The notes under the pieces are model-generated. The model saw only the letters and a list, made by a program, of their open reading frames with translations. It did not search any database and had not been told where the DNA came from. Below, one piece after another: positions 1-21,495 of a stretch of 64,000 nucleotides of DNA; the first letter of the stretch is position 1; the number at the start of each line of letters is the position of its first letter. The DNA comes from Symbiodinium sp. CCMP2592 (lineage: Eukaryota > Sar > Dinophyceae > Suessiales > Symbiodiniaceae): NCBI GenBank assembly GCA_905221615.1, contig CAJNDT010000320.1:1-64000 (forward strand), given 5' to 3'. Both the position numbers and the translations under genes were made by a program.

Positions 1-1247
1 GCCAGGTTTAGCGTTGAGAACTGAACAGTGTCCCTGTTGGAACGACTGTTTTCATTCACGAGAGCTTGGAAATCTGGTGCTGTAACCACCTGCGCTAGGA
101 GGTTTGATGGTACCAGACCGTGCCTCAGGATTGAGGATAATGCCTGTAGGTCCGGGGCATGCATGATGTAACAAGGGTTGTTCTGTCGAACAAAATCCTC
201 CATGCCGACGGGCCTCGGCGCGTTAGTGGAGAGACGCTGTGCATGGGACTGCACTGGATTGCTCCCCGTTGCCATGAAGTCTGAGATGGTCATGTGTGAC
301 CTTGGTCTCTCTTCTTCAGGATCTGGTTCTTCAGCTCTTGGTAGAGTTCTTCGTGAACCGTGTCCTCCCACTGCCGAAAGGAAAATTTTGCTCATGGTCA
401 ACACATTTGCATCCGGTGGGATGTTGACGGCGGCATCTGTGGTTTCGGCCTTGCCATCTTTGTTATAAACCATGGTGACCACAAACCTAGACTTAGTGTT
501 GAGGAGGACACCAAGCGCGATCTCTTGTGGTGTATACTGTGCTAGCTCTGCATCGGCCAACTTGAACATGTCCAGAAGATAATTGTGTTGGCCAGCAAAG
601 AGATCTGGGCGCTGGTTCTGAAGGTGTCTTGTTGAGTGTGCCAACCACCTTCCGACTCTGTTGGTCTTGGAAAGAATGTGGAAGCACATCTCTGGTGAAA
701 GACCTGTTACATCTGCCAGCTTTGGCACTGAGGAGGAGTAGTCATATTCTCCGGATCCATCAAGGCTCACACATTGTTCTACCTCCGGTGGGAGGCCTGT
801 CTGAAGGTGATGTGCAAGCATCGTACAGAACTGGCGTGGATCACGAGCGTGGTTACCGACGTTGTTATCCCAGTATACAAGGGGACTGTTGTCCCATGGT
901 CCTTGAAAGACTCCTTCGTAGAGCCTGACTCCATGTCTGGAGTTTAGATGTCTGGAGTTTAGAGTGAGCCTTGCTCCACTCGCATGGCCATATCGTGAGA
1001 TCAATTGAGCAAGATCTCTTGGATGCGGATTGAACCCCTGTTGGTGACCCATGATGATGAATTGAGGCTCGTGATTTTTCTCACGTTTGTGAATTCGGTG
1101 TCCACCGTGTTCGGTGTTTCGACGTGATGCTTCCCGACGAGACTCGGGGTACGAGCTATCCATGTGTGGATGTCGCTCATGGTACGCCGGCACTGCCCTG
1201 GGTAGGGCGTGTCCATCACGGCTACGGAAGTTTGATCGTGTGCTCAT
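1..1247 (-). CDS. Tpt1/KptA-like RNA 2'-phosphotransferase, second ORF of left element (3' end cut by window)
   Basis: Open from the ATG at 1247-1245 to the window edge (415 codons) with no stop or frameshift. The start matches the aligned start in the other copy (MSTRSNF versus MATRSNF). The order of motifs fits the Tpt1/KptA family, which removes a 2'-phosphate from RNA by NAD+-dependent ADP-ribosyl transfer: an LRH-like motif (STRHL, R207-H208), K-x-RF (KSRFVV, R254), a GGH motif in place of QGHS, a YHGT-like motif (YIMHAP) followed by ILRHGLVPS, and NRDTVQF (R405), which I align with the RxHVHL motif. If that alignment holds, the Arg-His-Arg-Arg catalytic set is complete. The first ~195 residues are Arg/His-rich and unrecognised. 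It lies 224 bases after the polyprotein stop. Homology is by eye; biochemical activity and role in the element are inference. Confidence 0.75.
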   Translation of the reverse strand, partial: MSTRSNFRSRDGHALPRAVPAYHERHPHMDSSYPESRREASRRNTEHGGHRIHKREKNHEPQFIIMGHQQGFNPHPRDLAQLISRYGHASGARLTLNSRHLNSRHGVRLYEGVFQGPWDNSPLVYWDNNVGNHARDPRQFCTMLAHHLQTGLPPEVEQCVSLDGSGEYDYSSSVPKLADVTGLSPEMCFHILSKTNRVGRWLAHSTRHLQNQRPDLFAGQHNYLLDMFKLADAELAQYTPQEIALGVLLNTKSRFVVTMVYNKDGKAETTDAAVNIPPDANVLTMSKIFLSAVGGHGSRRTLPRAEEPDPEEERPRSHMTISDFMATGSNPVQSHAQRLSTNAPRPVGMEDFVRQNNPCYIMHAPDLQALSSILRHGLVPSNLLAQVVTAPDFQALVNENSRSNRDTVQFSTLNL

Positions 1248-1409
1248 TACGGCACAATGACCAAACAGGATCAGGAACGCTTGGTTAGCCCGAAAGGCTG
1301 ATTGCTGTGAGGCTCGAGGATGAAAGCGGCTGCGGATGATACAGAACATATAATTCTCATGAACATGTCCGATCTTAATGAAAACGCAGCTCGCAGACAC
1401 AAATTTTCT

Positions 1410-1431
1410 TTTAGACGGAAAACAGTCTAAA
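1410..1431 (-). promoter_or_regulatory. Conserved stem-loop between polyprotein and second ORF (left copy)
   Basis: A 7-bp perfect stem (tttagac/gtctaaa) closes an 8-base loop in the gap between the polyprotein stop and the next ORF. The plus-strand copy has the same stem at 18025-18050, extended to 9 bp, with a different loop. The stem is kept while the loop changes, which suggests an RNA structure. Its role (processing, translation of the downstream ORF, packaging) is unknown. Confidence 0.45.
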
Positions 1432-1471
1432 TAGAAAATCCAGCACATGGTTGTGCTACCAGCAAACGAGA

Positions 1472-4400
1472 CTACCACCATATTCCTTGGCAGTAAAATA
1501 ATCGGTAAATCTCTGTTGAGATATCAATTCCAAGGAAGGCTACCGCTGTGGCGGCATTCTTGAGATTGTCTATGATCCACCGAACAGTGAAAGCTTTATG
1601 TTGAAGAAGTTCACGGAAGGGTGGATGAATGTCTGTTTCTGGTAAATTCCCTGTTTCCAGAGCCTTGATAAGCTCATCAGGTTGCGCCGAGTGCTTTGTT
1701 AATGCATCAGCTAGGCAGTACTTCGAGCTTACATGAGCTAGGTCATCTAAAGATCCAGAGTTGGATTCCTTACGAAGCATCTGAATGAGGTGGTGAGTTT
1801 CCTTCTGCTCTGGAAGGTGTGTCGTGCCTGCTGTTGTCACAAGATTGTTCGCATCTGTTCTGATATGTATGGGTACGGTCTCTGATGAGAGATCTGCCCA
1901 AAGTCCCTTGAGGAACAGGCAAGTACCAAAGCAACGCATCAGTGCGTTAAGCTCTGCCACTGTTGTGGACATTGTGGTTGTCGTAATCTTGTGAGACTCA
2001 TAATCCACCAGGCTACCTCTCGAGGATGTTTCCTTAATAGAGGATTCAGAGAAATCGTTCTTCTTGGAAGAAGCAGCTGCTGCTGATTGTTTCATTCCCT
2101 TTAGCTTTGGATTTCGATCTTCAGCAAGGAAAATAACATGTGCTCTCTGAGATGATTTGTCATCATTGTTCCTGTAGGAAGCATCAGGGTAACCGAGGAT
2201 TCTGAGATTTCCTTTCAGCGGCCAAAAACGCAGTTCTACTTCAGTAGACTTCAAAATCCTAACAAGCTTGTTCAATTCTCGAATATCACCGATAGTAGGC
2301 TTGGCAGCCTTACTCGCACACCGACTGAAGCGAGAACAGATGTGAGCTTGAGTCCGGCTTTGTAGCCAGTTGATCTGTCCTAAAACACTTCTGTAAGCAG
2401 TGTGCTGCTGTGGTGTGCATTGTTGCTCATTGTTGAGCTTCTTATCAAAAACAATTTTCTCTAGAGCTTCAACAGCTAGGTTCTGATTTACTGAGATATG
2501 TGCTGGTACCGATGCTGTAGCATCCTTCCAGACTAATCTCTGTCCTACAAACATAATATCGTTCGTGTCTTCAGAACCGACTGCAAAATCCTTTTTGATC
2601 GATTCAATCACGGCCTTACGAAAGGTGTCATCACCGGCCATGCACAGGTCATCTACATGTAAACAGACTACTCCATGTACCTGTCTACCCTTGGCATTGT
2701 TGCCTGCGATGGGATCTAGGAGATAGTCAATCGCTGATTCCATGGTCTTTGGCTGAGACTTCTTGATCTCAGCATCTGCTGTTGCAGACTTCTTACCATA
2801 CAGAACATATGTACAGCGATCCGCACGGGTTGGCACCAGGCCGTAAGACAGGAGTGCCTTATCAACGATGTTCCACCATCTTCGAGGAGCATCGTTAAGT
2901 CCATAAGCGGGTTTCTTCATCCTCGCTGCAATGTAGGGAGGATAACCTGCTTCAGGAGGAATCTGACAGATTATGTCTCTCGACTCATCATAGGCTTCAC
3001 CCTGCAGAAAAGCAGTCTTTAGGTCGATGTGTGTCAGATTCCACAGCTTGTTAGCTGCTAGTTGAATCGCCAAGCGGAAACCTGGGCGACTCGCAGCAGG
3101 ACTATCAGTTTGCTGTATGGCCTTTTGTCGATCCTGGAAACCTCTTAGGACCCATCGGGCCTTGCACTTAAGGAAGTTTCCGTCCTTATCTCTTTTTAGA
3201 GTCAGGACCCATCGACCAGTGACATAATTTCGGATGTTTCCGAGTTTCCGTGTATCGACGAGCTCAAAGACATCATTGTCTAGCCAGCTCTGAGATTCTG
3301 CTGCTTTCGCTTCATCAAACTGTTTCTTCATCTCACGCTTTTCTTTGGCGGTTGCCTCCTTCCGTTGTGCCTTCTGGGTCAGATTTGCTGAGTTCCTGGG
3401 GGAACTTAGGGATAAGGCCTTGTCATCTTCCGTGAGAAGATCATACTCTTCACGGATGTCAGATCGGAACCTTTTGGTGGGTTTATACCGTGTTCGGTCT
3501 GACCTCACTCTTGATGTTACCTCTCTGATGTCTACGGGTCCGCCATGCATGTACCGAGGCATGGAGAAAGAACCTGTGTTACTGCACAGTTTCTGTTCTT
3601 CTGTGAGAAGGATCCAGTCCTTCTCATCTACGACCAGGTCACCTTCCTCATCAGAGTAATACCTTGTGTCTTCTGACTCGGCATCGCTCTCCGGTTCTGG
3701 TGAACCAGAGGTGTGAGGAGGAGCGGACGGTTGTCCGGGGTCGTCCGGGACCAGTTCTTCTTCAGAATCTTCTTCATCTTGTTGTAACGGAAGAATGGGT
3801 CCCTGTGGATGTGCCTTCGGTTTAGGTTTTGGTGTCGGCACCTGTGAAGGTGATTTCTGTTTGTGCGGCGAAACTTTCCTTTCCGATGAAGACCTTGGCG
3901 ACACATCACCCCCCAGACGCCGAGGAGACGGAACGCGAGGAGGCGGATGCACGCGAGGCTTAGCCCGAGCAGGAGCCACGGGCTCATCGGAGGAAACGGC
4001 CGGTAGTCGCGGTGGAGGTATGGGAGGAGGAGGACGCGACGGCGGCGTGCCGGGAGGCATCGGCTGATCTGGTTCCGGCATAGAGACATCGTCAGATGTG
4101 ATCCGTGAGCGATTAGTGCTCATGGGTTCTGACGGGTCTGACGGCGAAACCTCTTCGTCCGACATGATAACATCCGGCGGTGTTCGCACGGACGGTGAAG
4201 TCTTGCCGCCTGTCATCTGGAAGAGCACCCCCGAGAAGGTTGATGGGTGTACTTTATTCCAGGAAACCTGGTGCGGCAAGCAACACGTCATAGTCGAATT
4301 GGGCTTCTTCTTGTTCCAGAAGACAAGAACGCCATCAGTTACACTGGTGAGTGCTTTAACTGTTCCAAATGTACCTCTGTATAGAGTACACTGTTCGAAA

Positions 4401-7400
4401 CCAGACCCTGGTAAGAGTCTTGATCTAAGGCGAGTAATGTCTGACACCAAGGCATCAAGGGACGGTGATGGTTTGGAATGATGCAATGGTAATTCAGTTT
4501 TACTCGATAAGGAATTTACTCTAGCAACAAGTGATCTGATTTTCGGATCTTGCAGGAGTTTGGAATCCTTGAGAGGATTTGCTGTCAAAAGTGAATACTC
4601 TTGGTCAAGAAGTTCCGAAAGTCCCTGGAGGCATTCATCTCCAGAGTATCCTAGTATGTCTGTGACTAAAGAAAGATGAGATGCATATGTATCTCTCTTC
4701 AGGAATCTTGCCAAACACGAGGCAAAGGTCTCACAGAATTCATAAGGATACACTTGTGCGAGTTTCGTTTTAAGACCGTAGCCTTGAATACCCTTTTCGT
4801 CTCCTGGTGGAGATGTTGGAGATTTCGTTTTGGCAGAATGCCTCTGGAGAGGAGTTAGAACCTGCGGTGGCAGGTTGTGCATGAAAATCGAGGATTTCGA
4901 TTCATAGTATCCTTTTGGATCTTTCATGCCATAGGCTTGTAGGTTACAGACCTCATAGCTGATCTTGCGGTTGGAAAACAGGCGTTTTGCTTCTGGTGAA
5001 GACCAGAGCCTGCTGTAGTATGGGTTCTCAAGAACAAAGTAACGTCCGAGCTTCATTTGGTGGTCTGCGACCGATTCACAGAATTTTAAAACAGAAAGTC
5101 TCTTGGCAGAGCCTTTCTTCCACTGTGAGTACCAGCTAGACCACTGAGAGTGATCGGGTGACATAACAATAATAGTAGGTTCTTGTTCCTTGATGATCCT
5201 AAGAAGATTGGAGCGACCTTGCGGTTGCTCAAGATCTAGACCACTACGCAAGTCGACTGGCTGACCTACTCGCAGACCTGACAGGGCAGCCTTGTGACTC
5301 ATACGGGGAGATCCACCGTAGAGTTCTAGGAAGTCAATCTTCCCAGTGCTGGTGACCTGCCAGTGACACTCTTGATGCGGAACCGTTAGGTCTGTCGACT
5401 GCAGGGAAGCATCAAAGGTGACCATGCAACTTGCGTGGTCAGAACCTTCTGACGTCAGAGTTTCCTCATCAGGCGCGAGAGGAATCTCCACATCAGATGT
5501 TATGTCATAATTTTTCCTCAGTTTTGAGATATTAACGCGGACGATGCGTGTTCCAAGATCCACACCTACCATGGATCCTCCGAGTTCGGAGATCACCTTT
5601 CCTTTTAGCCAAGATCCATGTTTGGACCCAGTTGATCCAATCTTAGACTTATCCTCTGACCAGTAGAAAACCTTATCTCCCAAAGAGAAAGGTCCTTCGG
5701 TCATTGACAGTCTGGCCGCAAGATCTCTGCGCAGATCATCAGATTGGCGTGCCTCTTGGTAAGCCCTGTTGGCAAGCTCCTTAATGGCTCTCGCAGTGAC
5801 TTCCGTATCAGTTGGATTACCTGTCAACTGATTGGGATCAGCGTTCTCTGGTGTTATAACATCTCGAGGACGCCTACCAAAGGCCATTTCTAAAGGAGTA
5901 ACTCCTCCATAGGTAATCGAAGAGTTTCTTGCCAAACATGCTTGTCGAACGAGGTTGCCATACTTCATGGTGATTCCGTTATACTGCGGGTCACCATCCT
6001 TCAGGATCTGAAGTATGATCTTAATCTGATGCTTCAGCAATCTTACAGCAGCTTCGGCCCTGTTGGGCCATGGTGTTCCAGGTCCTGTTGCTACAGGCTT
6101 GATATTCTGCCGATTGTAATAAGCCTCCATTTTTGGAGTCATGAATGCTTGATCTCCAACTACAACCCTTGGGTTGATCTGAAATTTCTCAAAATAGTCA
6201 TTCATAATCGACATTGTAGTATGCTCTTCCTTATCCTGGACTACTTCGGAAGTCAACAGGTTTGTTGCTCCGTCATAGAGAATAAGAAATATCAAGCGAC
6301 TATTTTTGCCGGGAATTGGAAGCTCACCGTGATCTACGAAGGTGAGATCACCGAAAGTCTCTGATCTTAAACCGGAAATCTTCGCTCTTGAAGGAGCTCT
6401 CACGTGTTCCTGACAGGCTGAACACTTTTTGACCAGTTGGTCATATAGCTCATATATCTCCTTTGGGATCTGTAAGGCTTTCGTGCGTCGCTTGAACTGA
6501 TCCGTACTCATATGACGGTGCTTAAGGTGAAGCTTATAGAGTTCTACAGGGTCCTTAAGCTTCTCATGAATCCTGCGAAGAGCAATGGGAAGAGATGGCG
6601 ATGGTTCTGCGACAATCTCTTCACCTGTAGGTGAGTCTGTACCAGGAGCCGGGTATTCTCTTGACTCAAGTGGTCTTACCTCCGTCCCGTCATCAGCTCC
6701 TGGGACCATAGACTTCTCCTCAACAGGAGGTTTGACCGCATATTTGCGGGTTTTCTTCAGAAGGTTTTTAAGACCCTTTGGAGTCTTTGTCTTCGCAGGT
6801 GGAACCTCAAGTCTTTCTTCTTCTGGAGGTTCGTGCGGTGCAGATGATTCTGCAGGTTTGTCTCTAGAGCCTGATGATGGTTCCGATGGTTCGGAAGGCT
6901 CAGGAGCATCACCAGATGGTTCTGGTGGATCAGGTTTCTTGGCAGATGATTCTGCCGGATCAGATGGAAGAGGCTTCTTCTTACCTGGAATGCCCTTCGG
7001 TGGTGGATCAGCTGCTCCTTCAGGTGCTTTGTCGCAACCTTTGAGGAACGTATGAGGCTTTTTCTGTCCTGCGCAGGCTGGACAGCGACCTTCCGGGATC
7101 TTAGTATAAGATCTTCTTTCTTCCTTTGGCTTCTTAGCTCCTAGAGCAGTCTCCGTCGCACTGAACGACGTACCTGACTTAGGGAGATACTTCCTGGTGG
7201 AAGTGAAGCCTAGAAGGTCCAATACCAAATGGTTATTGGTACTAATCGGAAGGGGGGTTTTGTACAAACCGAAAGCTTCACACGTTGCTAGGTCAGCTGT
7301 GGGACTACACTCGAGGGTCATTCTTAGATTCCTCATCTGTTCGATGGAGAACAAAATGGGAACTCTCCCCTGATCCAGAACCTCGATGGTTGTATCTCTT

Positions 7401-9358
7401 CTTGGAGTTGTGTTGAACCATAGAGTTACACGCTCCTTGATAAGAGCTGTTTCACTATCTGCGAAAGAGAACTTCGTGTTCGAAGGTGAGAAAGTGAAAT
7501 CAATCATGCCTGGGGCACGTTGCTTCACGGCCTTGATAAGCCTGTTCACCGCATAGCGGGAACCCATAGCCCTAGTACAACCTGAGTCAAGTATGACAAA
7601 GGTAGGGTTCTTATCAAGATTGATCCGCTCTGTGAGAGCAGATAGGACGGTGTGCTGCAACGGAAACACCGCTGTTGCAGTTTCAACACCTTGCCCCTCG
7701 GATGGTTCAAAGACCTGGGGCACGTAACTCACTGATGAGTTGAACACGGGTTCTTGGTGCGCGCTCGGATCTGTGCCTCTACCTGATGATCCTGCTTGAT
7801 TTCTTCTCTTCTTTCTCCGTGTTTTTCTTCGTGAGGCTTGTGATGCATAGTATGTATAAGACGTTTGATCGTCATAAGCGGCATAATTCCAACTGGAGTC
7901 AGTATAATAACTGTCCTCATACCATGAATCCCAGCTCGGTGCGGTGGAACTCTCATAGGCCTGTGGAGATCCAGTTTGGTCTCCTTGTAAGGAGGCAGAC
8001 TTAGCTGTATCCTTACCTTTGCCTTTTGCCTTTGCGCCTTTGAAGGAGCTTCCTTTATCTCCTTTGTCCTTTCCTTTTCCTTTGCCTTTTCCACCTTTTC
8101 CTTTTTCCTTTCCTTTACCTTTACCGAAATAGCTGGAATCAGTTGGATCATGTTCTGCCTGGTTGGCTCTCCCTTTTCCGCGGTATGACCTAAAACGGCC
8201 ACGTCCTTTTCGCTTGCCACCCTTTGCTCTTCCCGGTGATCCGGGACGCATTCTTGGTCTTCTTCCCTTTTTGAATCTCCTTGCAACGAAGGCCTCATGG
8301 TCATCAACTGTCCAGAAGACAGCTTCTTCATCCTCGGCGGCAAGAAAGCCTTCCTCAAGGGTGTCTTCGTCTTGGAGCCAGAATCCATCGACTCCATCGT
8401 ATTCACCCTGATCGAGGATGAGGAAGTTTCGACCTCCGCGTTTACGGCGTTGGTCTCTCCTTCCATGGCGGTCCTTCTTGTGAGAAGAGTGCCGAATGTT
8501 GGGATCCTGCAGACCAGTTCTGGTCGTTGAGAACTGATCGAACATGGTCTGCCGTACCACAGGGTACGTGTAGGTCTCAATTCGGTGACCTTGGTTGGTC
8601 AATGCTGTTACCAACCTCTCACGTTGCATCTCATTTAGGTCGGACTGCACTAGGAAGAGGAGAGCTAGGAGATTATCGTTCAGAGGAAACGCTCTTCGAT
8701 GATTGTCAAGGCGTTCCTTGTTCCATGTTTCGAAATAGCGTGCGGCATATGTGTCTCTCTCGGCTGCATCCTGCATGCGCAAGAAGGTTTGGTCTGCCTG
8801 CACAGCTTGCATGAAATCTGGATGGGCATCCTCCAGAGCTATCTCTGGTAAGAGATCCATCCATGAGTTTTTCACGCGCTGTAGCACGATCTCAAACTTG
8901 GCAATCCAAGTCACAAAGTCTTGGTTGCCCTTCCATGCCTTGAATAGGCCGAGGAAACGCCACAGGAAAACGTACTGTTCTCCTTTCACGAAAAATGGAC
9001 GCATCTTCTTCTTGAAGTAATCTACTCCATCTGGGGCTGCAAGCCTTTCTCGGTTCAGTGATTCCTTTTGTACTGCGGCCAATCCGGAGAGCCTCGTCTT
9101 GAGAGACGGACCTCTTTTGGTGTCATCCAGCGTTGTTATGTCGCACCAGTCGTCAATCAACTGTTCATACTCAAACCACGAGGTGGTGCCATCATAGGCA
9201 GGCGCGATCTTGGGCGTTATGCCTAATGATGCAAGCATGCGGTCAGATGTTGCATATGACTGTGCGACATAAGTGGCTGGACCTTGGGAGGTCTCTTCGT
9301 TCTCATATCCCCCGGAGGATTGGGAACTGTCGTCGGCTTCGCTATGCGAGCTCGACAT
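1472..9358 (-). CDS. Copia-type Gag-Pol polyprotein with methyltransferase-like domain (2628 aa, intact)
   Basis: A single open frame. Residues 1-300: gag-like helical region. About 380-460: Arg-rich, then Gly-Lys-repeat basic tail instead of the usual CCHC knuckle. Protease: D591-S-G-C. C759-x2-C...H...C is a zinc-knuckle-like motif. 775-905: Pro/Ser/Glu-rich linker. GAG-pre-integrase HHCC-type zinc site ends at C979/C982. Integrase core: D1009, D1069, E1102 (D-x32-E), followed by an SH3-like C-terminal segment. 1340-1450: class I methyltransferase-like fold (DFLELYGG, SPDHSQW at 1400, LENPYY at 1444) lacking the PC catalytic cysteine of C5-cytosine methyltransferases. 1750-1855: Pro-rich. 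Reverse transcriptase (RVT_2): D2112 and HVDDL D2236/D2237. RNase H: D2392, E2469, D2502, D2551. All retroelement catalytic residues are present. The start is the first ATG after the LTR and PBS and is shared with the other copy. Confidence 0.95.
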   Translation of the reverse strand: MSSSHSEADDSSQSSGGYENEETSQGPATYVAQSYATSDRMLASLGITPKIAPAYDGTTSWFEYEQLIDDWCDITTLDDTKRGPSLKTRLSGLAAVQKESLNRERLAAPDGVDYFKKKMRPFFVKGEQYVFLWRFLGLFKAWKGNQDFVTWIAKFEIVLQRVKNSWMDLLPEIALEDAHPDFMQAVQADQTFLRMQDAAERDTYAARYFETWNKERLDNHRRAFPLNDNLLALLFLVQSDLNEMQRERLVTALTNQGHRIETYTYPVVRQTMFDQFSTTRTGLQDPNIRHSSHKKDRHGRRDQRRKRGGRNFLILDQGEYDGVDGFWLQDEDTLEEGFLAAEDEEAVFWTVDDHEAFVARRFKKGRRPRMRPGSPGRAKGGKRKGRGRFRSYRGKGRANQAEHDPTDSSYFGKGKGKEKGKGGKGKGKGKDKGDKGSSFKGAKAKGKGKDTAKSASLQGDQTGSPQAYESSTAPSWDSWYEDSYYTDSSWNYAAYDDQTSYTYYASQASRRKTRRKKRRNQAGSSGRGTDPSAHQEPVFNSSVSYVPQVFEPSEGQGVETATAVFPLQHTVLSALTERINLDKNPTFVILDSGCTRAMGSRYAVNRLIKAVKQRAPGMIDFTFSPSNTKFSFADSETALIKERVTLWFNTTPRRDTTIEVLDQGRVPILFSIEQMRNLRMTLECSPTADLATCEAFGLYKTPLPISTNNHLVLDLLGFTSTRKYLPKSGTSFSATETALGAKKPKEERRSYTKIPEGRCPACAGQKKPHTFLKGCDKAPEGAADPPPKGIPGKKKPLPSDPAESSAKKPDPPEPSGDAPEPSEPSEPSSGSRDKPAESSAPHEPPEEERLEVPPAKTKTPKGLKNLLKKTRKYAVKPPVEEKSMVPGADDGTEVRPLESREYPAPGTDSPTGEEIVAEPSPSLPIALRRIHEKLKDPVELYKLHLKHRHMSTDQFKRRTKALQIPKEIYELYDQLVKKCSACQEHVRAPSRAKISGLRSETFGDLTFVDHGELPIPGKNSRLIFLILYDGATNLLTSEVVQDKEEHTTMSIMNDYFEKFQINPRVVVGDQAFMTPKMEAYYNRQNIKPVATGPGTPWPNRAEAAVRLLKHQIKIILQILKDGDPQYNGITMKYGNLVRQACLARNSSITYGGVTPLEMAFGRRPRDVITPENADPNQLTGNPTDTEVTARAIKELANRAYQEARQSDDLRRDLAARLSMTEGPFSLGDKVFYWSEDKSKIGSTGSKHGSWLKGKVISELGGSMVGVDLGTRIVRVNISKLRKNYDITSDVEIPLAPDEETLTSEGSDHASCMVTFDASLQSTDLTVPHQECHWQVTSTGKIDFLELYGGSPRMSHKAALSGLRVGQPVDLRSGLDLEQPQGRSNLLRIIKEQEPTIIVMSPDHSQWSSWYSQWKKGSAKRLSVLKFCESVADHQMKLGRYFVLENPYYSRLWSSPEAKRLFSNRKISYEVCNLQAYGMKDPKGYYESKSSIFMHNLPPQVLTPLQRHSAKTKSPTSPPGDEKGIQGYGLKTKLAQVYPYEFCETFASCLARFLKRDTYASHLSLVTDILGYSGDECLQGLSELLDQEYSLLTANPLKDSKLLQDPKIRSLVARVNSLSSKTELPLHHSKPSPSLDALVSDITRLRSRLLPGSGFEQCTLYRGTFGTVKALTSVTDGVLVFWNKKKPNSTMTCCLPHQVSWNKVHPSTFSGVLFQMTGGKTSPSVRTPPDVIMSDEEVSPSDPSEPMSTNRSRITSDDVSMPEPDQPMPPGTPPSRPPPPIPPPRLPAVSSDEPVAPARAKPRVHPPPRVPSPRRLGGDVSPRSSSERKVSPHKQKSPSQVPTPKPKPKAHPQGPILPLQQDEEDSEEELVPDDPGQPSAPPHTSGSPEPESDAESEDTRYYSDEEGDLVVDEKDWILLTEEQKLCSNTGSFSMPRYMHGGPVDIREVTSRVRSDRTRYKPTKRFRSDIREEYDLLTEDDKALSLSSPRNSANLTQKAQRKEATAKEKREMKKQFDEAKAAESQSWLDNDVFELVDTRKLGNIRNYVTGRWVLTLKRDKDGNFLKCKARWVLRGFQDRQKAIQQTDSPAASRPGFRLAIQLAANKLWNLTHIDLKTAFLQGEAYDESRDIICQIPPEAGYPPYIAARMKKPAYGLNDAPRRWWNIVDKALLSYGLVPTRADRCTYVLYGKKSATADAEIKKSQPKTMESAIDYLLDPIAGNNAKGRQVHGVVCLHVDDLCMAGDDTFRKAVIESIKKDFAVGSEDTNDIMFVGQRLVWKDATASVPAHISVNQNLAVEALEKIVFDKKLNNEQQCTPQQHTAYRSVLGQINWLQSRTQAHICSRFSRCASKAAKPTIGDIRELNKLVRILKSTEVELRFWPLKGNLRILGYPDASYRNNDDKSSQRAHVIFLAEDRNPKLKGMKQSAAAASSKKNDFSESSIKETSSRGSLVDYESHKITTTTMSTTVAELNALMRCFGTCLFLKGLWADLSSETVPIHIRTDANNLVTTAGTTHLPEQKETHHLIQMLRKESNSGSLDDLAHVSSKYCLADALTKHSAQPDELIKALETGNLPETDIHPPFRELLQHKAFTVRWIIDNLKNAATAVAFLGIDISTEIYRLFYCQGIWW

Positions 9359-9441
9359 TGTGCTGCCTCTTATCCGCTTGGTTAAGCGTTCGGCGAGGCC
9401 GACCGCTGTAGCGGACTTTGGGAGGCGGGCGGCCCTTTCCG

Positions 9442-9454
9442 GGCTCCGCTACCA
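9442..9454 (-). promoter_or_regulatory. Primer binding site, left element
   Basis: On the minus strand TGGTAGCGGAGCC begins six bases after the LTR's terminal CA. It has the form expected for a sequence complementary to a tRNA 3' end (...TACCA), like the initiator-Met PBS of many copia elements. The exact tRNA cannot be assigned here. The same motif is at 9992-10004 in the other element. Confidence 0.7.
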
Positions 9455-9460
9455 GAAAAC

Positions 9461-9657
9461 TGAGCCGATACACCCACAAGGAAATGCTCCTTGTTAGGAG
9501 GTGTATGACCAGTTTATTCCCTAAGGATCAAAGGGCAGCGCCCTGCACACGGACAGTAGTTGTTTTGTCTTGCTACGCAAGGAGAGCTTGTCTTGTCTCA
9601 ATATGGTAAAACCACTGTGAGCCAATGGGCAGCGGAATGTATATGTATGAGCACGCA
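9461..9657 (-). repeat. 5' LTR of left element (197 bp)
   Basis: On the minus strand it begins TGCGTGCTCAT and ends GTGTATCGGCTCA, with TG...CA termini. It aligns along most of its length with the plus-strand LTRs at 9794-9985 and 23002-23158 (shared blocks include ACATTCCGCTGC, GTGGTTTTACC and GGTGTATCGGCTCA). Its partner 3' LTR is outside the window. Confidence 0.85.
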
Positions 9658-9660
9658 GCC

Positions 9661-9789
9661 ATTGCTGTAGGTACCTGTTAGAGCTACCCCTTTAGAGGTT
9701 TACGCAAACAGGGGGCTTAAAGGCTTCGACCCTTTGCCCCCCCTCCCCCTGTTTACTTAAACCTCTAAAGGGGTAGTACCTACAGCAAT
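9661..9789. repeat. Inverted repeat at the head-to-head junction of the two elements
   Basis: The arms are 9661-9715 and 9745-9789 with a 29-base spacer. Aligned as reverse complements they differ by two substitutions and one 10-base indel. The arms directly abut the outward 5' LTR ends, so the whole 9.6-kb left element and the first 9 kb of the right one form one long imperfect inverted repeat. The spacer shares TTAAAGG/CTTCGA-type words with the low-complexity block after 23160. The arms do not occur before the 3' LTR at 23002, which argues against their being part of the LTR. Confidence 0.85.
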
Positions 9790-9793
9790 GGCT

Positions 9794-9985
9794 TGGTCGC
9801 ATGCTCACATATATACATTCCGCTGCTCACTGGTTCAAGTGGTTTTACCGACTTGTAGCAAGCTCTCTCTGCGTAGCAGAACAAAACAATCGCTGTCCGT
9901 GTGCTGGGCGTTGCCTTAGATCCCACGGGACTCAAACTGGTCATACACTCCCACAGGAGTAATCCTAAAGGGGTGTATCGGCTCA
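9794..9985 (+). repeat. 5' LTR of right element (192 bp)
   Basis: Starts TGGTCGCATGCTCACATATA and ends GTGTATCGGCTCA. The copy at 23002-23158 has the same ends but lacks about 35 internal bases (the GGTTCAAGTGGTTTTACC block). No convincing TATA box or polyadenylation signal was identified inside. Confidence 0.9.
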
Positions 9986-9991
9986 GTTTTC

Positions 9992-10004
9992 TGGTAGCGG
10001 AGCC
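9992..10004 (+). promoter_or_regulatory. Primer binding site, right element
   Basis: TGGTAGCGGAGCC lies six bases after the LTR end. It is identical to the left element's site, so the same tRNA primer is implied for both. Confidence 0.7.
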
Positions 10005-10086
10005 CGGAAGGGCCGCCCGCCTCACAAAGCACCGCAACAGCGGTCGGCCTAGCCGATCGCTTAGCAAAGCGGGCTGAGGCAGCACC

Positions 10087-11709
10087 ATGTCGAGCTCGCA
10101 CAGCGAAGCCGACGGCAGCTCCCAATCCTCCGGGGGATATGAGAACGAGGAGACCTCACAAGGTCCAGCCACTTATGTCGCGCAGTCATATGCAACATCT
10201 GACCGTATGCTTGCATCATTAGGCATAACGCCCAAGATCGCGCCTGCCTATGATGGCACCACTTCGTGGTTTGAGTATGAACAGTTGATTGACGACTGGT
10301 GCGACATAACAACGCTGGATGACACCAAAAGAGGTCCGTCTCTCAAGACGAGGCTCTCCGGATTGGCCGCAGTACAAAAGGAATCACTCAACCGAGAAAG
10401 GCTTGCAGCCCCAGATGGAGTAGATTACTTCAAGAAGAAGATGCGTCCATTTTTCGTAAAAGGAGAACAATATGTTTTCCTGCGGCGGTTCCTTGGCAGG
10501 TTCAAGGCGTGGAAAGGCAACCAAGACTTTGTCACTTGGATTGCCAAGTTTGAGATCGTGCTCAATAGACTGCGAAACTCTTGGATGGATCTCTTACCAG
10601 AGATAAACCTGGAAGATGCCAATCAGGAGTTTGTAACGGCAGTGCAGCAAGATCAAACTTTCACTCGCCTGCAGGATGCCCATGAGAGGGACCAGTATGC
10701 CGCACGATTCTTTGAGACATGGAACAGGGAACGCCATGATAATCATCGTAGAGCGTTTCCACTGAATGACAATCTCCTAGCTCTCCTGTTCCTAGTGCAG
10801 TCCGACCTGAATGAGATACAACGTGAGAGGTTGGTATCAGCATTGACCAACCAAGGTTACCGAATTGAGACCTACACGTACCCTGTGGTACGGCAAACTA
10901 TGTTCGATCAGTTTTCAACGACCAGAACTGGTTTGCAGGATCCCAACATTCGGCATACTTCTCACAAGAAGGACCGCCATGGAAGGAGAGACCAACGCCG
11001 CAAACGCGGAGGTCGGAACTTTCTCATCCTCGATCAGGGTGAATACGACGGAGTCGATGGATTCTGGCTCCAAGATGAAGACACCCTTGAGGAAGGCTTT
11101 CTTGCCGCTGAAGATGAGGAAGCTGTCTTCTGGACAGTGGATGACCATGAGGCTTTCGTTGCAAGGAGATTCAAGAAGGGAAGAAGACCAAGAATGCGTC
11201 CCGGATCACCGGGAAGAGCAAAGGGTGGCAAGCGAAAGGGACGTGGCCGTTTTAGGTCATACCGCGGAAAAGGGAGAGCCAACCAGGCAGAACATGATCC
11301 AGCCGATTCCAGTTATTTCGGTAAAGGAAAAGGAAAGGACATAGGAAAAGGTGGAAAAGGCAAATGGAAAGGAAAAGGAAAGGAAGACAAAGGAAGCTCT
11401 TTCAAAGGCACCAAAGGAAAGGGCAAAGGTAAGGATACAGCTAAGTCTGCCTCCTTACAAGGAGATCAAACTGCATCTCCACATGCCTATGAAGGTTCCA
11501 CCACACCGAGCTGGGATTCATGGTACGAGGACAGTTACTACACTGACTCCGGTTGGAATTATGCCGCTTATGACGAAAATACGTCTTACACGTACTATGC
11601 ACAAGCCTCAAAACGTAAAGCACGGAGAAAGAAGAGAAGGAACAACAAAGGATCATCAGGTAGAGCACAGATCCGAGCGCGCACCATGATACCGTGTACA
11701 ACTCCTTAG
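10087..11709 (+). pseudogene. Gag-like part of right copia polyprotein, frameshifted at its 3' end
   Basis: Aligns from its first residue (MSSSHSEAD) to the gag region of the intact minus-strand polyprotein: conserved helical region, Arg-rich stretch (KKGRRPRMRPG) and Gly-Lys repeats. The true frame is lost near 11666, where the intact copy has one more G. After that the ORF reads an unrelated tail of about 14 residues before its stop at 11709. In an intact element this frame would run straight into the protease. Gag would form the cytoplasmic particle and the basic tail would bind RNA. No CCHC knuckle is present. Confidence 0.9.
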
Positions 11710-14700
11710 AGAGTTATTTGCCTTTGGCGCATGATGAACGTCAGGGGCCAGGTGTGGAGACTGCAACAGCAGTGTTTCCGTTGCAGCACACCGTCCTGTC
11801 TGCTCTCACAGAGCGGATCAATCTTGATCGAAGCCCTACCTTTGTCATTCTTGACTCAGGTTGTACAAGGGCCATGGGATCCCGCTATGCGGTGAATCGG
11901 CTTATCAAGGCCGTCAAGCAACATGCTCCAGGCATGATTGATTTTACTTTCTCACCTTCGAACACGAAGTTCTCCTTTGCAGATAGTGAAACAGCTCTTA
12001 TCAAGGAGCGTGTAACCTTGTGGTTTAACACAACTCCCAGACGGGATACTACCATAGAGGTGCTCGATCAACGCAAGGTTCCCATTCTATTTTCCATTGA
12101 ACAGATGAGGAATCTCAGAATGACCCTTGAGTGCAGTCCGACCGCGGATCTTGCAACGTGTGAAGCTTTTGGTCTTTACAAGACCCCCCTTCCGATTAGT
12201 ACCAATAATCACTTGGTGCTTGACCTCCTAAGCTTCACTTCCACCAGGAAGTATAGTCTTAAGGACGGTTCTTCCTTTCAAGCAACAGAAACTGCCTTAG
12301 GAGCCAAGAAGCCGAAGGAAGACAGGCGATCTTATACAAAGATTCCGGAAGGTCGTTGTCCAGCCTGTGCAGGACAAAAGAAGCCTCACACTTTCCTGAA
12401 GGGGTGTGACAAGGCACCGGAAGGTGCAGCGGATCCTCCGCCCAAGGGCATTCCAGGCAAAAAGAAGACACCTCCACCAGACCCCGCAGAATCCTCTGCT
12501 AGAAGGTCTGATCCACCAGAACCATCTGGTGAACCACCTGAGCCTGCCGAATCATCGGAACCAGCATCAGGCTCAAGAGACAAACCTCCAGAAGTTTCGG
12601 AACCACCCGAACTTCCTTCTGAAGAGAAGCCTGAGCTTCCACCAGGAAGGGTAAAGACTCCAAGAGGTCTCAAAAATCTTCTCAAAAAGAAGAAATATGC
12701 AGTTAAACCTCCAGTGGAGGAGAGATCTGTTGTCCCAGGAGCTGATCACGGGACGGAGGTAGAACCACTTGAGTCAAGAGAATACCCTGCTCCTAGGACA
12801 GACTCACCAACAGGTGAGAGAGACCACGGAGAGGAAATTGTGCCTGAACCGGCACCCTCTCTTCCTATTGCCCTTCGTAGGATTCACGAGAAGCTCAAGG
12901 ATCCAGTTGAACTCTACAAGCTTCATCTGAAGCATCGTCACATGAACATAGACCAGTTCAAAAGAAGGACAAAGGCTCTTCAGATTCCGAAGGAAATTTA
13001 TGAGCTCTATGACCAACTGGTCAAGAAGTGCTCAGCTTGTCAGGAACACAAACGAGCCCCTTCGCGGGCGAAAATATCAGGTCTAAGATCCGAAACCTTC
13101 GGGGGTCTAACTTTCGTAGACCATGGTGAATTGCCAATTCCTGGCAAGGCTAGTCGACTTATATTTCTCATACTTTATGATGGAGCGACAAACCTCCTGA
13201 CATCTGAAGTTGTTCAGGACAAGGAGGAACATACTACCATGTCCATCATGAATGACTATTTTGAGAAATACCAGATCAACCCAAAGGTTGTTGTTGGAGA
13301 TCAAGCCTTCATGACTCCAAAAATGGAGGCCTATTATAATCGGCAGAATATCAAACCTGTAGCCACAGGCCCAGGTACACCATGGCCTAACAGGGCCGAG
13401 GCAGCTGTACGATTGCTGAAACATCAGATTAAGATCATACTTCAGATTCTCAAGGATGGTGATCCGGAATATAATGGTATCACTATGAAGTATGGTAACT
13501 TAGTGCGTCAGGCATGTTTGGCAAGAAACTCCTCAATTACATACGGGGGAGTAACTCCTCTAGAGATGGCCTTTGGTAGACGTCCTCGAGACGTTATAAC
13601 GCCCGAGAATGCAGACCCCAATCAGTTGACCGGTAATCCTACCGACACTGAGGTTACTGCAAGAGCCATTAAGGAACTTGCCAACAAAGCCTACCAAGAG
13701 GCACGCCAATCTGATGACCTCAGGAGAGATCTCGCATCGAGGCTCTCGATGACCGAAGGACCTTTCTCTCTAGGAGATAAGGTCTATTATTGGTCAGAAG
13801 ACAAATCAAAAATCGGATCAACCGGATCCAAACATGGATCCTGGCTAAAAGGAAAGGTAATCTCCGAACTCGGAGGTTCCATGGTAGGTGTTGATCTAGG
13901 CACTCGTATTGTGCGAGTGAATATCTCCAAACTGAGAAAGAACTATGACATCACATCTGATGTAGAGATTCCCTTAGCACCTGATGAAGAAACTCTTACA
14001 TCAGAAGGTTCAGACCATGCCAGCTGTATGGTCACCTTTGATGCGTCCCTGATTTCATCAGATCTGACAATACCTCATCATGAGTGTCACTGGCAGGTCA
14101 CCAGTTCAGGAAAGATCGACTTCCTGGAGCTCTACGGAGGATCACCTCGTATGAGTCACAAGGCTGCCTTATCAGGATTGAGAGTAGGACAGCCGATAGA
14201 CCTGCGCAGTGGATTAGATCTTGAACAGCCACAAGGCCGTTCAAAGCTTCTAAGGATAATCAAGGAACAAGAACCTACCATTATTGTGATGTCTCCGCAC
14301 CACTCCCAATGGTCCAGTTGGTATTCTCAGTGGAAGAAAGGCTCTAGCAAGAAACTTTCGACTCTCAAGTTTTGTGAATCTATTGCAGATCACCAAATGA
14401 AACTTGGGCGATATTTCGTCCTAGAAAATCCTTACTACAGCAAGCTTTGGTCAACACCAGAAGCAAAACGATTGTTCTCTAACCCAAAGGTTAGCTATGA
14501 GGTATGCAATCTCCAGGCCTATGGTATGCAAGATCCAAAAGGATACTATGAGTCTAGATCTTCGATCTTCATGCATAACCTGCCACAGCAGGTGCTGACT
14601 CCTATTCATAGGAATATCCCAAGGCCAAAATCTCCAACCTCTTCACCCAAAGGTGAAACGGGTATTCAAGGCTACGGTCTCAAGACTAAACTGGCGCAAG

Positions 14701-15941
14701 TATATCCGTACGAATTCTGTGAGACCTTTGCCTCATGCATGGCAAGGTTTCTGCGCCGAGATTCGTATGCATCGCATCTCTCCTTGTTGACCGATATCTT
14801 GCAGTATTCAGGAGACGAATGTCTCCATGGATTGTGCGATCTGCTCGATCAAGAGTATTCTCTTCTCACAATCAATCCTCTCAAGGATTCTAAGTTGCTG
14901 CAAGATCCAAAAATCCGATCACTTGTGACCAGAGTCAATTCTCTACCGAGTAAGACAGAGTTACCATTGCATCATTCCAAACCATCACCGTCCCTGGATG
15001 CGTTGGTATCGGATATTACTCATTTGAGATCCAGACTTTTGCCAGGATCTGGCTTTGAGCAGTGTACTCTTTACAGAGGCACTTTTGGCACAATGAAAAC
15101 ACTCACAAGTGTTACTGATGGCGTTCTTGTATTCTGGAACAAGAAACGACCCAATCAGACCATGACCTGTTGTCTTCCGCATCAGGTGTCCTGGAACACA
15201 ATGCACCCTACAACATTCTCGGGGGTGCTGTTCCAAATGACTGGTGGCAAATCTTCACCGTCTGTCCGGCCGCCACCAGATGTCATTATGTCTGACGAGG
15301 AGGTCTCGCCATCGGACCCGTCGGAACCAATGAGCACCAACCGGTCTCGCGTCACGTCTGACGATGCCTCTACGCCTGAGCCAGATCAACTTATGTCTCC
15401 TGGCGTTCCTCCGTCGCGTCCTCCTCCTCCCTTGCCTCCACCGCGACTTCCGGCCGTGTCATCCGATGAGCCCGTGGCTCCTGCTCGGGCTAAGCCTCGC
15501 CTACATCCGCCTCCTCGCGCGCCGTCTCCTCGGCGTCTGGGGGGTGATGTGTCGCCCAGGTCTTCATCGGAAAGGAAGGCTTCGCCGCACAAACAGAAGT
15601 CACCTCCACAGGTGCCTCTCCAAAGCCTAAGCCGAAGGCGGCACCGCAACAGTCAGGACCGATTCTCCCTTTACAACAGGATGATGGAGAATCCTCGGAA
15701 GAGATGGTCCCCGATGATCCCGGACAACCGTCCGTTCTTCCTCATACGTCAGGTTCTCCTGAACCAGAGAGTGATGCTGAGTCTGATGACACAAGGTATT
15801 ACTCCGACGAGGAAGGTGATCTTGTTGTGGACGAGAAGGACTGGATCCTTCTATCTGAAGAACAGAAACTGTGTAGCAACACAGGATCCTTCTCAATGCC
15901 GCGCTACATGCACGGCGGCCCTGTGGACATCCGAGAGGTAA
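11694..15941 (+). pseudogene. Protease-integrase-methyltransferase-like part of right copia polyprotein
   Basis: Real homology begins at about 11667, upstream of the first ATG in this frame. In order: protease (ILDSGCTRAMG), a CPAC...H...C knuckle-like motif, a Pro/Glu-rich linker (three residues plus RDH longer than in the left copy), GAG-pre-integrase with CSACQEH, integrase core (FVDHGE, GDQAF, NRAEAAV), SH3-like segment, and the methyltransferase-like domain (DFLELYGGSP, MSPHHSQWSSW, VLENPYY). The catalytic residues of protease and integrase are intact. The methyltransferase-like domain has no Cys in the P-x-H position here either. A 1-base deletion near 15615 shifts the frame inside the Pro-rich region; the remaining ~110 codons to 15941 are out of frame and meaningless. 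Confidence 0.9.
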
Positions 15942-17986
15942 CCTCAAGAGTGAGATCGGACCGAACACGGTACAGACCTTCCAAGAAGATTCGATCCGAT
16001 ATCCGTGAGGAGTATGATCTACTAACGGAAGAGGACAAGGCCTTATCTGTGAGTCCCCATAGGAATTCATCCAATCTTACCCAGAAGGCACAACGGAAGG
16101 AAGCAACCGCTAAGGAGAGGCGGGAAATGAAGAAGCAGTTCGACGAGGCAAAGGCAGCCGAGTATCAAAGCTGGTTGGACAATGATGTGTTTGAGCTTGT
16201 AGATACACGCAAGCTCGGAAACATCCGAAATTATGTGACAGGTCGATGGGTCCTAACTCTAAAAAGAGATAAGGATGGAAACTTCTTGAAATGTAAGGCC
16301 CGTTGGGTTTTACGAGGTTTCCAAGATCGACAGAAAGATATCCAGCAAACTGATAGTCCTGCCGCCAGTCGTCCAGGCTTCCGTTTGGCGATTCAATTAG
16401 CAGCTAACAAGCTGTGGAATCTGACTCACATTGATCTTAAGACCGCCTTTCTGCAAGGTGAGGCATACGATGAGTCTCGTGACATAATCTGCCAGATTCC
16501 TCCTGAAGCAGGTTATCCTCCTTATATAGCTGCGAGGATGAAGAAGCCCGCCTACGGACTCAACGATGCACCTCGCAGGTGGTGGAACATTGTAGACAAG
16601 GCCCTTCTATCCTATGGCCTCGTTCCGACTCGTGCGGACCGTTGTACATATGTTCTGTACGGTAAGAAGTCTGCAACAGCAGAGGCGGAACTTAAGAAGT
16701 CTCAGCCGAAGTCAATGGAGTCAGCGATCGACTATCTCCTTGATCCCATAGCAGGCAATAATGCCAAGGGTAGAGAAGTTCATGGAGTAGTCTGTTTACA
16801 TGTAGATGATTTGTGCATGGCCGGTGATGACACCTTTCGTAAGGCCGTGATCGATTCGATCAAAAGGGAGTTTGCAGTAGGTTCTGAGGACACAAACGAT
16901 ATTATGTTTGTAGGACAAAGACTAGTCTGGAAAGATGCAACAGCATCTGTACCAGCTCACATTTCTGTGAATCAGAACCTTGCAGTTGAGGCCTTAGAAG
17001 AAATTGTGTTTGACAAGAAGCTCAACAATGAGCAGCCATGTACACCACAACAGCACACTGCATATCGAAGTGTTCTTGGTCAGATTAATTGGCTACAAAG
17101 CCGGACCCAAGCTCACATTTGTTACCGTTTCAGCAGGTGTGCAAGCAAGGCTGCCAAGCCAACAATAGGTGACATCAGAGAATTGAACAAACTTGTTCGA
17201 ATCCTTAAGGCCACTGAAGTAGAATTGCGTTTTTGGCCGCTGAAAGGAAACCTTCGTATTCTAGGCTATCCGGATGCTTCCTATAGGAACAATGATGACA
17301 AGTCATCGCAGAGAGCGCATGTCATTTTTCTTGCTGAAGAACGCAATCCAAAACTGAAAGGCGTGAAACAGTCCGCCGCAGCAACTTCTTCCAAGAAGAA
17401 TGATTTCTCTGAGTCCTCCATTAAGGAAACATCCTCACGAGGTAGCCTGGTAGACTATGAATCTCACAAGATTACTACGACGACAATGTCCACTACGGTG
17501 GCAGAGTTAAATGCACTCATGCGTTGTTTTGGTACCTGTTTGTTTCTTAAGGGACTCTGGGCAGATCTCTCATCAGAGACAGTGCCCATACACATAAGAA
17601 CTGATGCAAACAATTTGGTCACTACAGCAGGCACAACTCATCTTCCGGAACAGAAGGAAACTCATCATCTTATTCAGATGCTCCGAAAGGAGTCTAACTC
17701 TGGTTCCCTGGATGATTTGGCTCACGTCAGTTCGAAATATTGCCTGGCAGATGCCCTTACGAAACATTCAGCACAGCCAGATGAGCTTATCAAGGCTCTA
17801 GAAACAGGGAATCTTCCCGAAACTGACATACATCCTCCATTTCGGGAGATGTTACAACACAAGGCTTTTACTGTTCGATGGATCATTGATCACCTAAAGA
17901 ATGCCGCATCAGCGGTAGCTTTCCTTGGAGTTGATATCTCAACAGAGATCTACAAAATATTTTACTGTCAAGGAGTCTGGTGGTAA
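15704..17986 (+). pseudogene. Reverse transcriptase/RNase H part of right copia polyprotein
   Basis: Continues the polyprotein after the frameshift near 15615. The ATG at 15704 is merely the first methionine in the restored frame, not a true start. It contains the RVT_2 domain (WLDNDVFELVD, THIDLKTAFLQGEAYDE, CLHVDDLCMAGDD) and RNase H (YPDASYRNND, VAELNALM, RTDANN, CLADALTKH) and ends CQGVWW, as in the intact copy (CQGIWW). All catalytic aspartates are retained, so loss of function comes from the upstream deletions rather than from this part. It would copy element RNA into cDNA inside particles. Confidence 0.92.
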
Positions 17987-18024
17987 CCAAGGCAATTTAC
18001 CGCACAAACATGTGCTGGATTTTC

Positions 18025-18050
18025 CTTTTAGACTATCTTTTGTCTAAAAG
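18025..18050 (+). promoter_or_regulatory. Conserved stem-loop between polyprotein and second ORF (right copy)
   Basis: Perfect 9-bp stem cttttagac/gtctaaaag with an 8-base loop, 39 bases after the polyprotein stop. The left element keeps seven of the stem pairs and changes the loop sequence. Confidence 0.45.
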
Positions 18051-18194
18051 AAATTTGTGTCTGCATGCTGCATTCTCTGTTGCGCATACATGTGCATGAG
18101 TGATCCACGTTCTCTTTATTCCGCAGCCGCTTTCAGCTTACAGCTTTCAAGGCATACTTTGCCTTTGTGCAACACCTTCGACCCCAGGGCCCGT

Positions 18195-20898: not shown

Positions 20899-21001
20899 AC
20901 AGTCTAGTGCTCATGTGTTTTACCTGTTGATTGCCTCGAAAGAAATTTGATTATCGAGGCATGCTGATCCACACACCGGCTAACGAGCCGAGGCACCATC
21001 C

Positions 21002-21495
21002 ATGTACTTGGGCGTAAAAGGAGATCCGACCACGGATATCGCCCTGATACATCATTTTTACAGGCACCGAACGGTGCGACCCAAGGATGGTGGAGCGCGC
21101 CAGATATAGGCCGACACGGTGCGGTATGCCGGCTAACGTTTGGCTATCATTCGGCCATTCCCGAGGCAAGAGAATGGGTACACCCGAACACGGGTCAACG
21201 CATGACTCAACGAGAGTACATGGAGCTCATCGGGACAGACCCTCTCAAGGGTAGAGATCCTGATGCCGATGGACATAGCCCACTAGGGTTCACAATCCAA
21301 CCTATGATCACCAAAGGGAATGACAATAGGTCCAACGAGCAAGTGCAGAAAATCGATTTAAGCAAACAAACAGACAACAATCTTTTACTGAAAGCATGGC
21401 CGCGTGTTCAGACATACACGAACAAAGTGCTAACCGTATTCAGTGTTGCGGAGTGTGGAATTATGAAAAGGTTAAAATCTCAGATATTCCATTGA
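21002..21495 (+). pseudogene. Unrecognised small ORF downstream of Tpt1-like ORF
   Basis: The ATG at 21002 opens a 35-codon frame (MYLGVKGDPTTD...). Near 21106 an adjoining frame takes over (RHGAVCRLTFGYHSAIPEA...) and runs to a stop at 21495. The second frame contains EWVHPNTGQRM and MELIGTDPLKG. I do not recognise a family. The join is inferred from continuity and composition; no second copy is in the window to test it. It lies inside the element, 100 bases after the zinc-motif ORF, so it is probably element cargo or a host fragment picked up by it. Confidence 0.35.

Follow-up and report, generated by a model that had tools for sequence, protein, structure and literature searches.

The first 64,000 nucleotides (64 kb) of contig CAJNDT010000320.1 (C320) of the dinoflagellate Symbiodinium sp. 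CCMP2592 (assembly GCA_905221615.1), hereafter the window, contain two copies of a retrotransposon that carries a domain related to the RNA 2'-phosphotransferase Tpt1/KptA. By its sequence features, the frame encoding this domain is the second open reading frame (ORF2) of a high-copy Ty1/copia-type long terminal repeat (LTR) retrotransposon. The Tpt1-like domain is under purifying selection and lies between the LTRs, behind the polyprotein. Its homology to Tpt1 is close to certain, and the presence of an element-borne copy of Tpt1 with retained active-site residues suggests that RNA repair or modification is used by the element to spread.

The first-pass annotation had placed an ORF with Tpt1/KptA motifs directly after the polyprotein of both elements; both frames were located there, and the motifs were present as quoted. 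A significant match to the family was obtained with two kinds of profile comparison. PF01885 matched the trimmed right frame with an E-value of 6.1e-6 and 26.8 bits, above the gathering cut-off of 26 (the whole right frame, at 2e-5 and 25.1 bits, fell just under it), and alignment to Tpt1 with hhalign gave scores of 41.4 (local) and 40.5 (global), compared with at most 20.4 and 4.9 for the controls (1 reversed and 15 column-shuffled). Tpt1 proteins pair a winged-helix RNA lobe with an ART-type NAD lobe, and the predicted structure appears to contain the expected NAD-binding lobe; this is weak evidence, since the alignment given to the model included five Tpt1 proteins. The left copy ends inside the NAD lobe and had no PF01885 match alone. 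Compared with Tpt1/KptA, approximately 40 extra residues separate the GGH and MHA motifs. A PDB sequence search with the right frame returned no relevant match, and NCBIfam gave one weak, unrelated match for the two window frames.

The tetrad of Clostridium Tpt1 consists of Arg18, His19, Arg68, and Arg121, while the His and Thr of its HGT motif hold the adenosine ribose and Arg139 contributes to a phosphate cage (available text of PMC6333775). The four tetrad residues align to R199, H200, R246, and R397 of the right copy, and the HGT His, HGT Thr, and Arg139 to H355, T357, and R416. The residues singled out earlier as catalytic, R207, H208, R254, and R405 on the left and the same right-hand four, were found at those positions, and their conservation extends well beyond the window. 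Among 26 sequences, including proteins from outside the assembly, the tetrad residues are kept in 26, 26, 25, and 26, respectively, the sole loss of R246 being in a copy with two stops (L032). H355 is kept in all 26 and T357 in 25, with Pro in the left window copy as the only departure, and the cage arginine R416 is present in each of the 25 sequences that reach it. In a yeast test, replacement of both the His and Thr by Ala was lethal, and cells with Ala at the cage Arg were barely viable (PMC6333775, available text). As read from the alignment, the residues shown to matter are held, with the RATQGH motif and the Gly of HGT altered.

A number of observations weigh against the assignment. RATQGH is replaced by AxxGGH, with the GGH His itself kept in 20 of 26 sequences; where HGT has Gly, 25 of 26 sequences have Ala and one has Ser; and a second cage arginine (R417) is kept in 12 of 25. 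The domain has also diverged strongly: in a tree, a branch of about 5.4 changes per column (3.69 + 1.67) separates the copia rows from the rest of Tpt1. PF01885 misses the long ORF2 in contig C204 and one of the homologous proteins described below (P0012), and it finds two others only below its gathering score (P0011, E = 0.025; P0013, E = 0.15); no copy of the copia family appeared among the listed PF01885 matches in the genome (150 scored of 1550 candidates). Finally, the structure model had a middling mean predicted local distance difference test (pLDDT) value of 64 with true Tpt1 rows in its alignment, and a model made from the two window copies alone was useless (pLDDT 34).

The frame is abundant in the genome, for which the 1.1-Gb assembly (5383 contigs) was searched; all copy and linkage counts are lower bounds, being drawn from the best 84 of 996 Tpt1-like and the best 59 of 3706 reverse transcriptase (RT) candidates. 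All 84 places scored with a piece of the right ORF2 were strong matches, 77 of them without a stop in the matched part and 27 within a frame of at least 2,360 codons. Thirty-four had an identical score (723.0 bits, 61% identity), a pattern that suggests a recent burst. With a piece of the polymerase as the query, at least 26 of the 59 RT places proved to have the Tpt1-like frame 212–382 nt further along the same strand, so that the RVT_2 domain and the Tpt1-like frame do recur together within one element of this genome; the 33 places without a listed partner say little, as the lists hold best places only.

Comparison of copies also showed purifying selection. Across the Tpt1 lobes of 15 copy pairs, the ratio of nonsynonymous to synonymous substitution rates (dN/dS, by the NG86 method) was 0.08–0.18 in 13, with one pair of saturated dS and a value of 0.31 for near-copies; dS exceeded 1.5 in several pairs, making single values rough, and pairs with dS of 0.08–0.4 agree at 0.11–0.14. 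The N-terminal part before the lobes gave 0.11–0.29 in 14 pairs and 0.49 for the near-copies. Between the two window copies, dN and dN/dS were 0.028 and 0.023 for the polymerase C-terminus, and 0.278 and 0.178 for the Tpt1 lobes. The cargo evolves faster than the polymerase, yet it is constrained.

The backbone of the element is that of a copia-type retrotransposon. In Pfam scans, the polyprotein matched RVT_2 (E = 7.4e-16) and, weakly and below the cut-off, the integrase family rve (E = 0.007). Judged by motif, a protease-type DSG (recognized by eye), an integrase-like region, and the RT follow one another in that order, which is the order of Ty1/copia elements. The C-terminal parts of the right and left polyproteins are identical at 722 of 760 residues. 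As a side observation, the minus strand at 4682–5347, between integrase and RT, has by eye the look of a degenerate C5-methyltransferase (motifs FLELYGG..., MSPDHS..., VLENP), but the region had no Pfam or PDB sequence match.

The borders can be read in a copy on contig C975, where LTRs identical over 251 bp enclose ORF2 and CCCCT flanks the element on both sides. The flank of this copy is itself a C-rich repeat, which makes the 5-bp repeat weaker evidence than usual; flanks were seen for this copy and for the right window copy (CCCCC). Next to the 5' LTR of both window elements lies a primer binding site, TGGTAGCGGAGCCCGG (9439–9454, minus strand; 9992–10007, plus strand), in which 15 of 16 positions are complementary to the 3' end, including the CCA, of a tRNA-Met whose gene was identified in the same genome with ARAGORN, in two of the three stretches taken. 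The tRNA is presumably the initiator. As far as sequence can tell, the primer site matches an intact tRNA-Met 3' end and lends no special support to the repair of a cleaved primer.

Between ORF1 and ORF2 stands a tract of the polypurine type, TAAAAGAAAATT(T/A)GTGTCTG(C/T), found in the left element as TAAAAGAAAATTTGTGTCTGC (1393–1413, minus strand) and in the right one at 18044–18064 (plus strand), with 4 mismatches to the left tract in that register. In C975 it is repeated directly before the 3' LTR, with 2 mismatches to the left window tract; just two matches at 4 or fewer mismatches occur in 19 kb of that contig, whereas none turned up when a 10-kb stretch was shuffled 20 times. In contig C204, a second tract behind ORF2 adjoins other sequence with no LTR, and a third precedes the LTR of a neighbouring element. 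We take the outer tract to be the probable polypurine tract and the inner one to be a duplicate of it. One possibility is that a plain copia element gained ORF2 beyond what had been its 3' end; another is that plus-strand synthesis has an additional start at the inner tract, as is known from Ty1. In both copies, the beginning of the internal tract is overlapped by a short inverted repeat, TTTAGAC...GTCTAAA (18040–18064; 1393–1430).

In young copies, ORF2 has about 2,300 codons. The C204 copy has a frame of 2402 codons (2310 from the Met of MSTRSNF) and encodes first the Tpt1-like domain and a linker that is acidic and of low complexity. Next come a finger resembling a B-box (PF00643, E = 2.7e-4; its 21.5 bits fall below the cut-off of 24.1), a conserved stretch of approximately 570 residues in which three copies are 73–75% identical to C204, and a long tail. 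An endonuclease/exonuclease/phosphatase (EEP) or DNase I-like domain in the later part of ORF2 was considered and is kept as a lead only, there being no Pfam or PDB match and no hhalign match to the EEP domains of LINEs (long interspersed nuclear elements). The motif-like residues that prompted it, noticed by eye in the conserved stretch (CNWGNMD, LVLEAG, VHFNS, GDLNN, and DWHSPLGF), are conserved with single changes among those of seven sequences that reach them.

A homologue search with the C204 ORF2 (7835 candidates) returned four proteins, P0011 to P0014. P0011 and P0012, from the ENA, are 57% identical over 79 and 65% of ORF2, respectively, and P0013 and P0014, from Symbiodinium sp. CCMP2592, are 87 and 91% identical over 28 and 22%. 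The first three contain the Tpt1-like part; P0014 comprises later parts only, and P0013 also includes, by eye, polyprotein sequence. These sequences point to at least one further, more distant carrier of ORF2. The gene model of P0013, named BSL3, joins a retroelement polyprotein and the Tpt1-like part to a calcineurin-type phosphatase domain (E = 1.1e-24), and is probably an annotation that runs across an insertion. A search with a 515-residue piece scored 7995 candidates, none at E of 0.01 or lower, for which a length limit is the guessed cause, and in one scan for relatives in viral contigs one stretch fit a pattern and none was confirmed.

Within the window, the two elements lie head to head, the left one running leftward and the right one rightward. 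The window starts where the contig starts, so the left element cannot be completed. Its 5' LTR (9461–9710, minus strand) is 250 bp long and of the form TG...CA, and an LTR in contig C204 matches it at 99.6% identity over 250 nt; it is followed by ORF1 (1472–9358, minus strand), a single open frame encoding a polyprotein of 2628 residues with the DSG protease-like motif seen by eye, an integrase-like region, and RVT_2, and by ORF2 (1–1247, minus strand), which begins at the Met of MSTRSNF at 1247 and is truncated by the contig end at base 1, its Tpt1/KptA-like domain running from about 686 down to 3. On the right, CCCCC precedes the 5' LTR (9750–9985, plus strand), and ORF1 (10087–17986, plus strand) is now broken into three overlapping open frames. 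The N-terminal part of the right ORF2 remains an open frame from the Met of MATRSNF at 18195 to a stop ending at 20306 (plus strand), and its Tpt1/KptA-like domain (18732–19619, plus strand; residues 180–475) comprises a putative RNA lobe with R199-H200 and K244-x-R246 and a putative NAD lobe with H355-A-T357, R397, and R416.

The later part of the right ORF2 is out of frame, shortened, and partly inverted. Searches by tblastn with the C204 ORF2 traced an out-of-frame remainder that includes the B-box-like Cys cluster (20449–20979, plus strand), shortened remnants of later parts (21031–21369, plus strand), and an inverted piece of the C-terminus (22449–22991, minus strand; residues 2215–2398), so that this copy is rearranged. 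A shortened LTR piece at 23002–23158 (plus strand), which ends in CGGCTCA followed by CCCCC and matches pieces of 9794–9985 at 96% over 113 nt and 100% over 38 nt, is taken as the probable 3' LTR remnant of the right element. Positions 1321–18135 form a palindrome with arms 84% alike. A single old inverted duplication was considered as its origin; it is no more likely than a pair of insertions into one C-rich repeat, because the C975 copy also has a head-to-head partner in a C-rich repeat. The elements sit in C-rich repeats of the CCCCCTTTAAAG type, head to head in the window (9700–9760) and in C975 (L049, 760–1765), and this setting and placement suggest a target preference. Elsewhere in the window, 28736–31915 is a dense array resembling satellite DNA, in which either strand has long open frames, and 54783–64000 holds tandem copies of about 2.6 kb that are 98.5–99.7% alike. 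An Rfam scan of positions 1–24000 gave no match at the gathering threshold.

With these features, a mechanism may be proposed. The ORF2 protein would be made from the element transcript and would bind NAD+ and RNA; it would convert RNA bearing a 2'-phosphate, together with NAD+, to 2'-OH RNA and ADP-ribose cyclic phosphate. Its substrate would be the element's own RNA, or the tRNA on which the element depends, after cleavage and religation, and the RT would consequently meet clean RNA. To anchor it in the ribonucleoprotein (RNP) of the element, the protein would use its B-box-like finger and its long tail. That the domain is an active NAD+-dependent enzyme acting on RNA phosphates is probable. 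The fuller reading, a divergent Tpt1/KptA in ORF2 that removes 2'-phosphates from element RNA or tRNA, is modestly favoured, and a role in healing element or primer RNA is put forward tentatively. Of the possible targets, RNA of the element itself or its partner tRNA is the most likely.

Four other explanations were weighed. Tpt1 enzymes are reported to ADP-ribosylate RNA (PMC6582358, PMC9458441, available texts), and the domain could place ADP-ribose on phosphorylated RNA ends as a cap that protects element RNA or hides it from host sensors. Some ADP-ribosylated intermediate is left by RslTpt1 when Ala replaces the cage Arg and its neighbour (PMC6333775, available text), and that neighbour, R417, is Arg in 12 of 25 sequences here. 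However, both of the tetrad arginines that are tied to the second step of the reaction (PMC6333775, available text) are kept, with no sign that the first step alone survives; this explanation is unlikely, and 2'-phosphate removal is the most likely chemistry because both second-step arginines are retained. The domain could instead be a dead Tpt1 fold that the particle retains for RNA binding or for its structure, in a gag-like or chaperone-like use. Its strong divergence and the altered GGH and HGT motifs fit this idea, but at most one sequence departs at any of the tetrad positions, H355, T357, or R416, outside proteins included, while some neighbouring residues vary, and a dead fold is quite improbable.

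Of the remaining two, one concerns host defence, with the enzyme mending RNAs or tRNAs of the host after cleavage by one of its RNases or by a splicing-type defence directed at the element. The KptA proteins of phages and two RNA viruses have been read as counter-defence (PMC9503650, available text), a host pathway of animals excises transposons from mRNA and religates it (PMC13247085, available text), and the Tpt1 lobes of the two window copies have changed faster than the polymerase. Set against this, Pfam scans of ORF1 and ORF2 revealed no RNA ligase or kinase, and dN/dS values well below 1 indicate no positive selection on average. We know of no defence in this host that cuts and religates element RNA, and counter-defence is rather unlikely. 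It is far less probable still that the frame is a passenger, either a host Tpt1 captured by chance and without benefit or a mere neighbour. Stops within the matched part in seven of the 84 scored copies, and the rearranged state of the right window copy, speak for a passenger, but such an origin is disfavoured by dN/dS, by the position and spacing behind the polymerase in at least 26 of 59 RT places, by the LTR borders with CCCCT in C975, and by the relatives elsewhere.

The copia family is not the only retroelement of this genome with such a gene. The PF01885 search described above gave listed matches of 92–178 bits, the last being the top score, and frames of a LINE-type endonuclease or RVT_1 were found on the same strand as KptA at loci L009–L012, L014 to L018, L023, and L024; the stretches taken of L013, L019–L022, and L025 showed none. 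L009–L011 (G000:C890:310000-339999) are tandem units of 10.1 kb, each with a ubiquitin-hydrolase-like frame (UCH, E = 6.5e-11), a frame of 304 residues, a 665-residue frame with a PARP-like stretch (E = 2.8e-4, below the cut-off) and KptA (137 bits in L010), a frame of 212–213 residues, and an RVT_1 frame (E = 2.7e-22) with a BED-type zinc finger. L020 and L022 have smaller frames arranged likewise. A LINE with a deubiquitinase and KptA as cargo would itself be a separate finding. At L017 (4263–8867), KptA (152 bits) and an Exo_endo_phos endonuclease share one open frame of 1535 codons. At L019 (G000:C1724:480000-489999), a 665-residue KptA frame was observed upstream of a different RVT_2 polyprotein frame (1853 codons, with a zinc knuckle) on the same strand, a frame of 271 codons lying between; this may be either a nested insertion or another copia element with KptA.

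Recent transfer of KptA from these LINEs to the copia family was considered and set aside, as a 100/100 branch of the tree divides its 7 copia rows from the remaining 11. The tree has 18 rows, with 7 of the 26 copia sequences and without P0009 and P0010; with 10 of the 15 inner branches open, exact placement is unsure. The occurrence of KptA in LINE-type elements also suggests a shared need. It is conceivable, if doubtful, that the handling of RNA 2'-phosphates is a bottleneck of retrotransposition in dinoflagellates and that retroelements unrelated to one another, copia and at least one kind of LINE, each captured Tpt1/KptA, with ORF2 a self-contained, RNP-borne repair module made up of Tpt1, a zinc finger, and possibly an EEP-like domain.

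The copia domain resembles known Tpt1/KptA proteins (PF01885; PDB 7yw2, 7yw3, 6e3a, 8tfz) in its lobe order, tetrad, K-x-R-F motif, HGT His and Thr, SGMR Arg, and, in a model of middling confidence, predicted fold. Unlike them, it sits in a retrotransposon protein of about 2,300 residues, has AxxGGH in place of RATQGH and HAT in place of HGT, and forms a separate clade on a long branch. With Ty1/copia elements (PF07727) the carrier shares RVT_2, the motif order, LTRs, a tRNA-Met primer site, and a 5-bp flanking repeat, but it differs by a very long second ORF with an enzyme behind the polyprotein and by the internal copy of a polypurine-type tract. The KptA-bearing LINEs of the same genome are likewise retroelements with KptA, whereas their PF01885 matches are strong (as in L010 and L017) and they lie outside the copia clade. 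KptA in selfish elements has been described in the polyproteins of animal RNA viruses (a Beihai picorna-like virus and a Botrylloides leachii nidovirus), in nucleopolyhedrosis viruses of sawflies, and in Bodo saltans virus; there, the carriers are viruses, and the words retrotransposon, retroelement, and transposon are absent from the main text (PMC9503650, available text). A dinoflagellate retroelement with an enzyme as cargo is known from Symbiodinium, in which the cargo is a cytosine methyltransferase and Copia elements are without any DNA methyltransferase (DNMT) domain, according to the available text of PMC5890265. Ty1-copia elements of S. microadriaticum are mentioned as activated by heat (PMC11453091, available text).

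No description of a retrotransposon bearing Tpt1/KptA was found in the open-licence literature, the only literature covered, which is weak evidence of absence. Retroelements as such are known to acquire enzymes. Should the domain be active, a mobile element carries a tool for the healing of RNA ends or for the ADP-ribosylation of RNA, and damaged or religated RNA in retrotransposition becomes directly testable, with the near-identical copies in the genome of Symbiodinium sp. CCMP2592 as natural variation for comparison.
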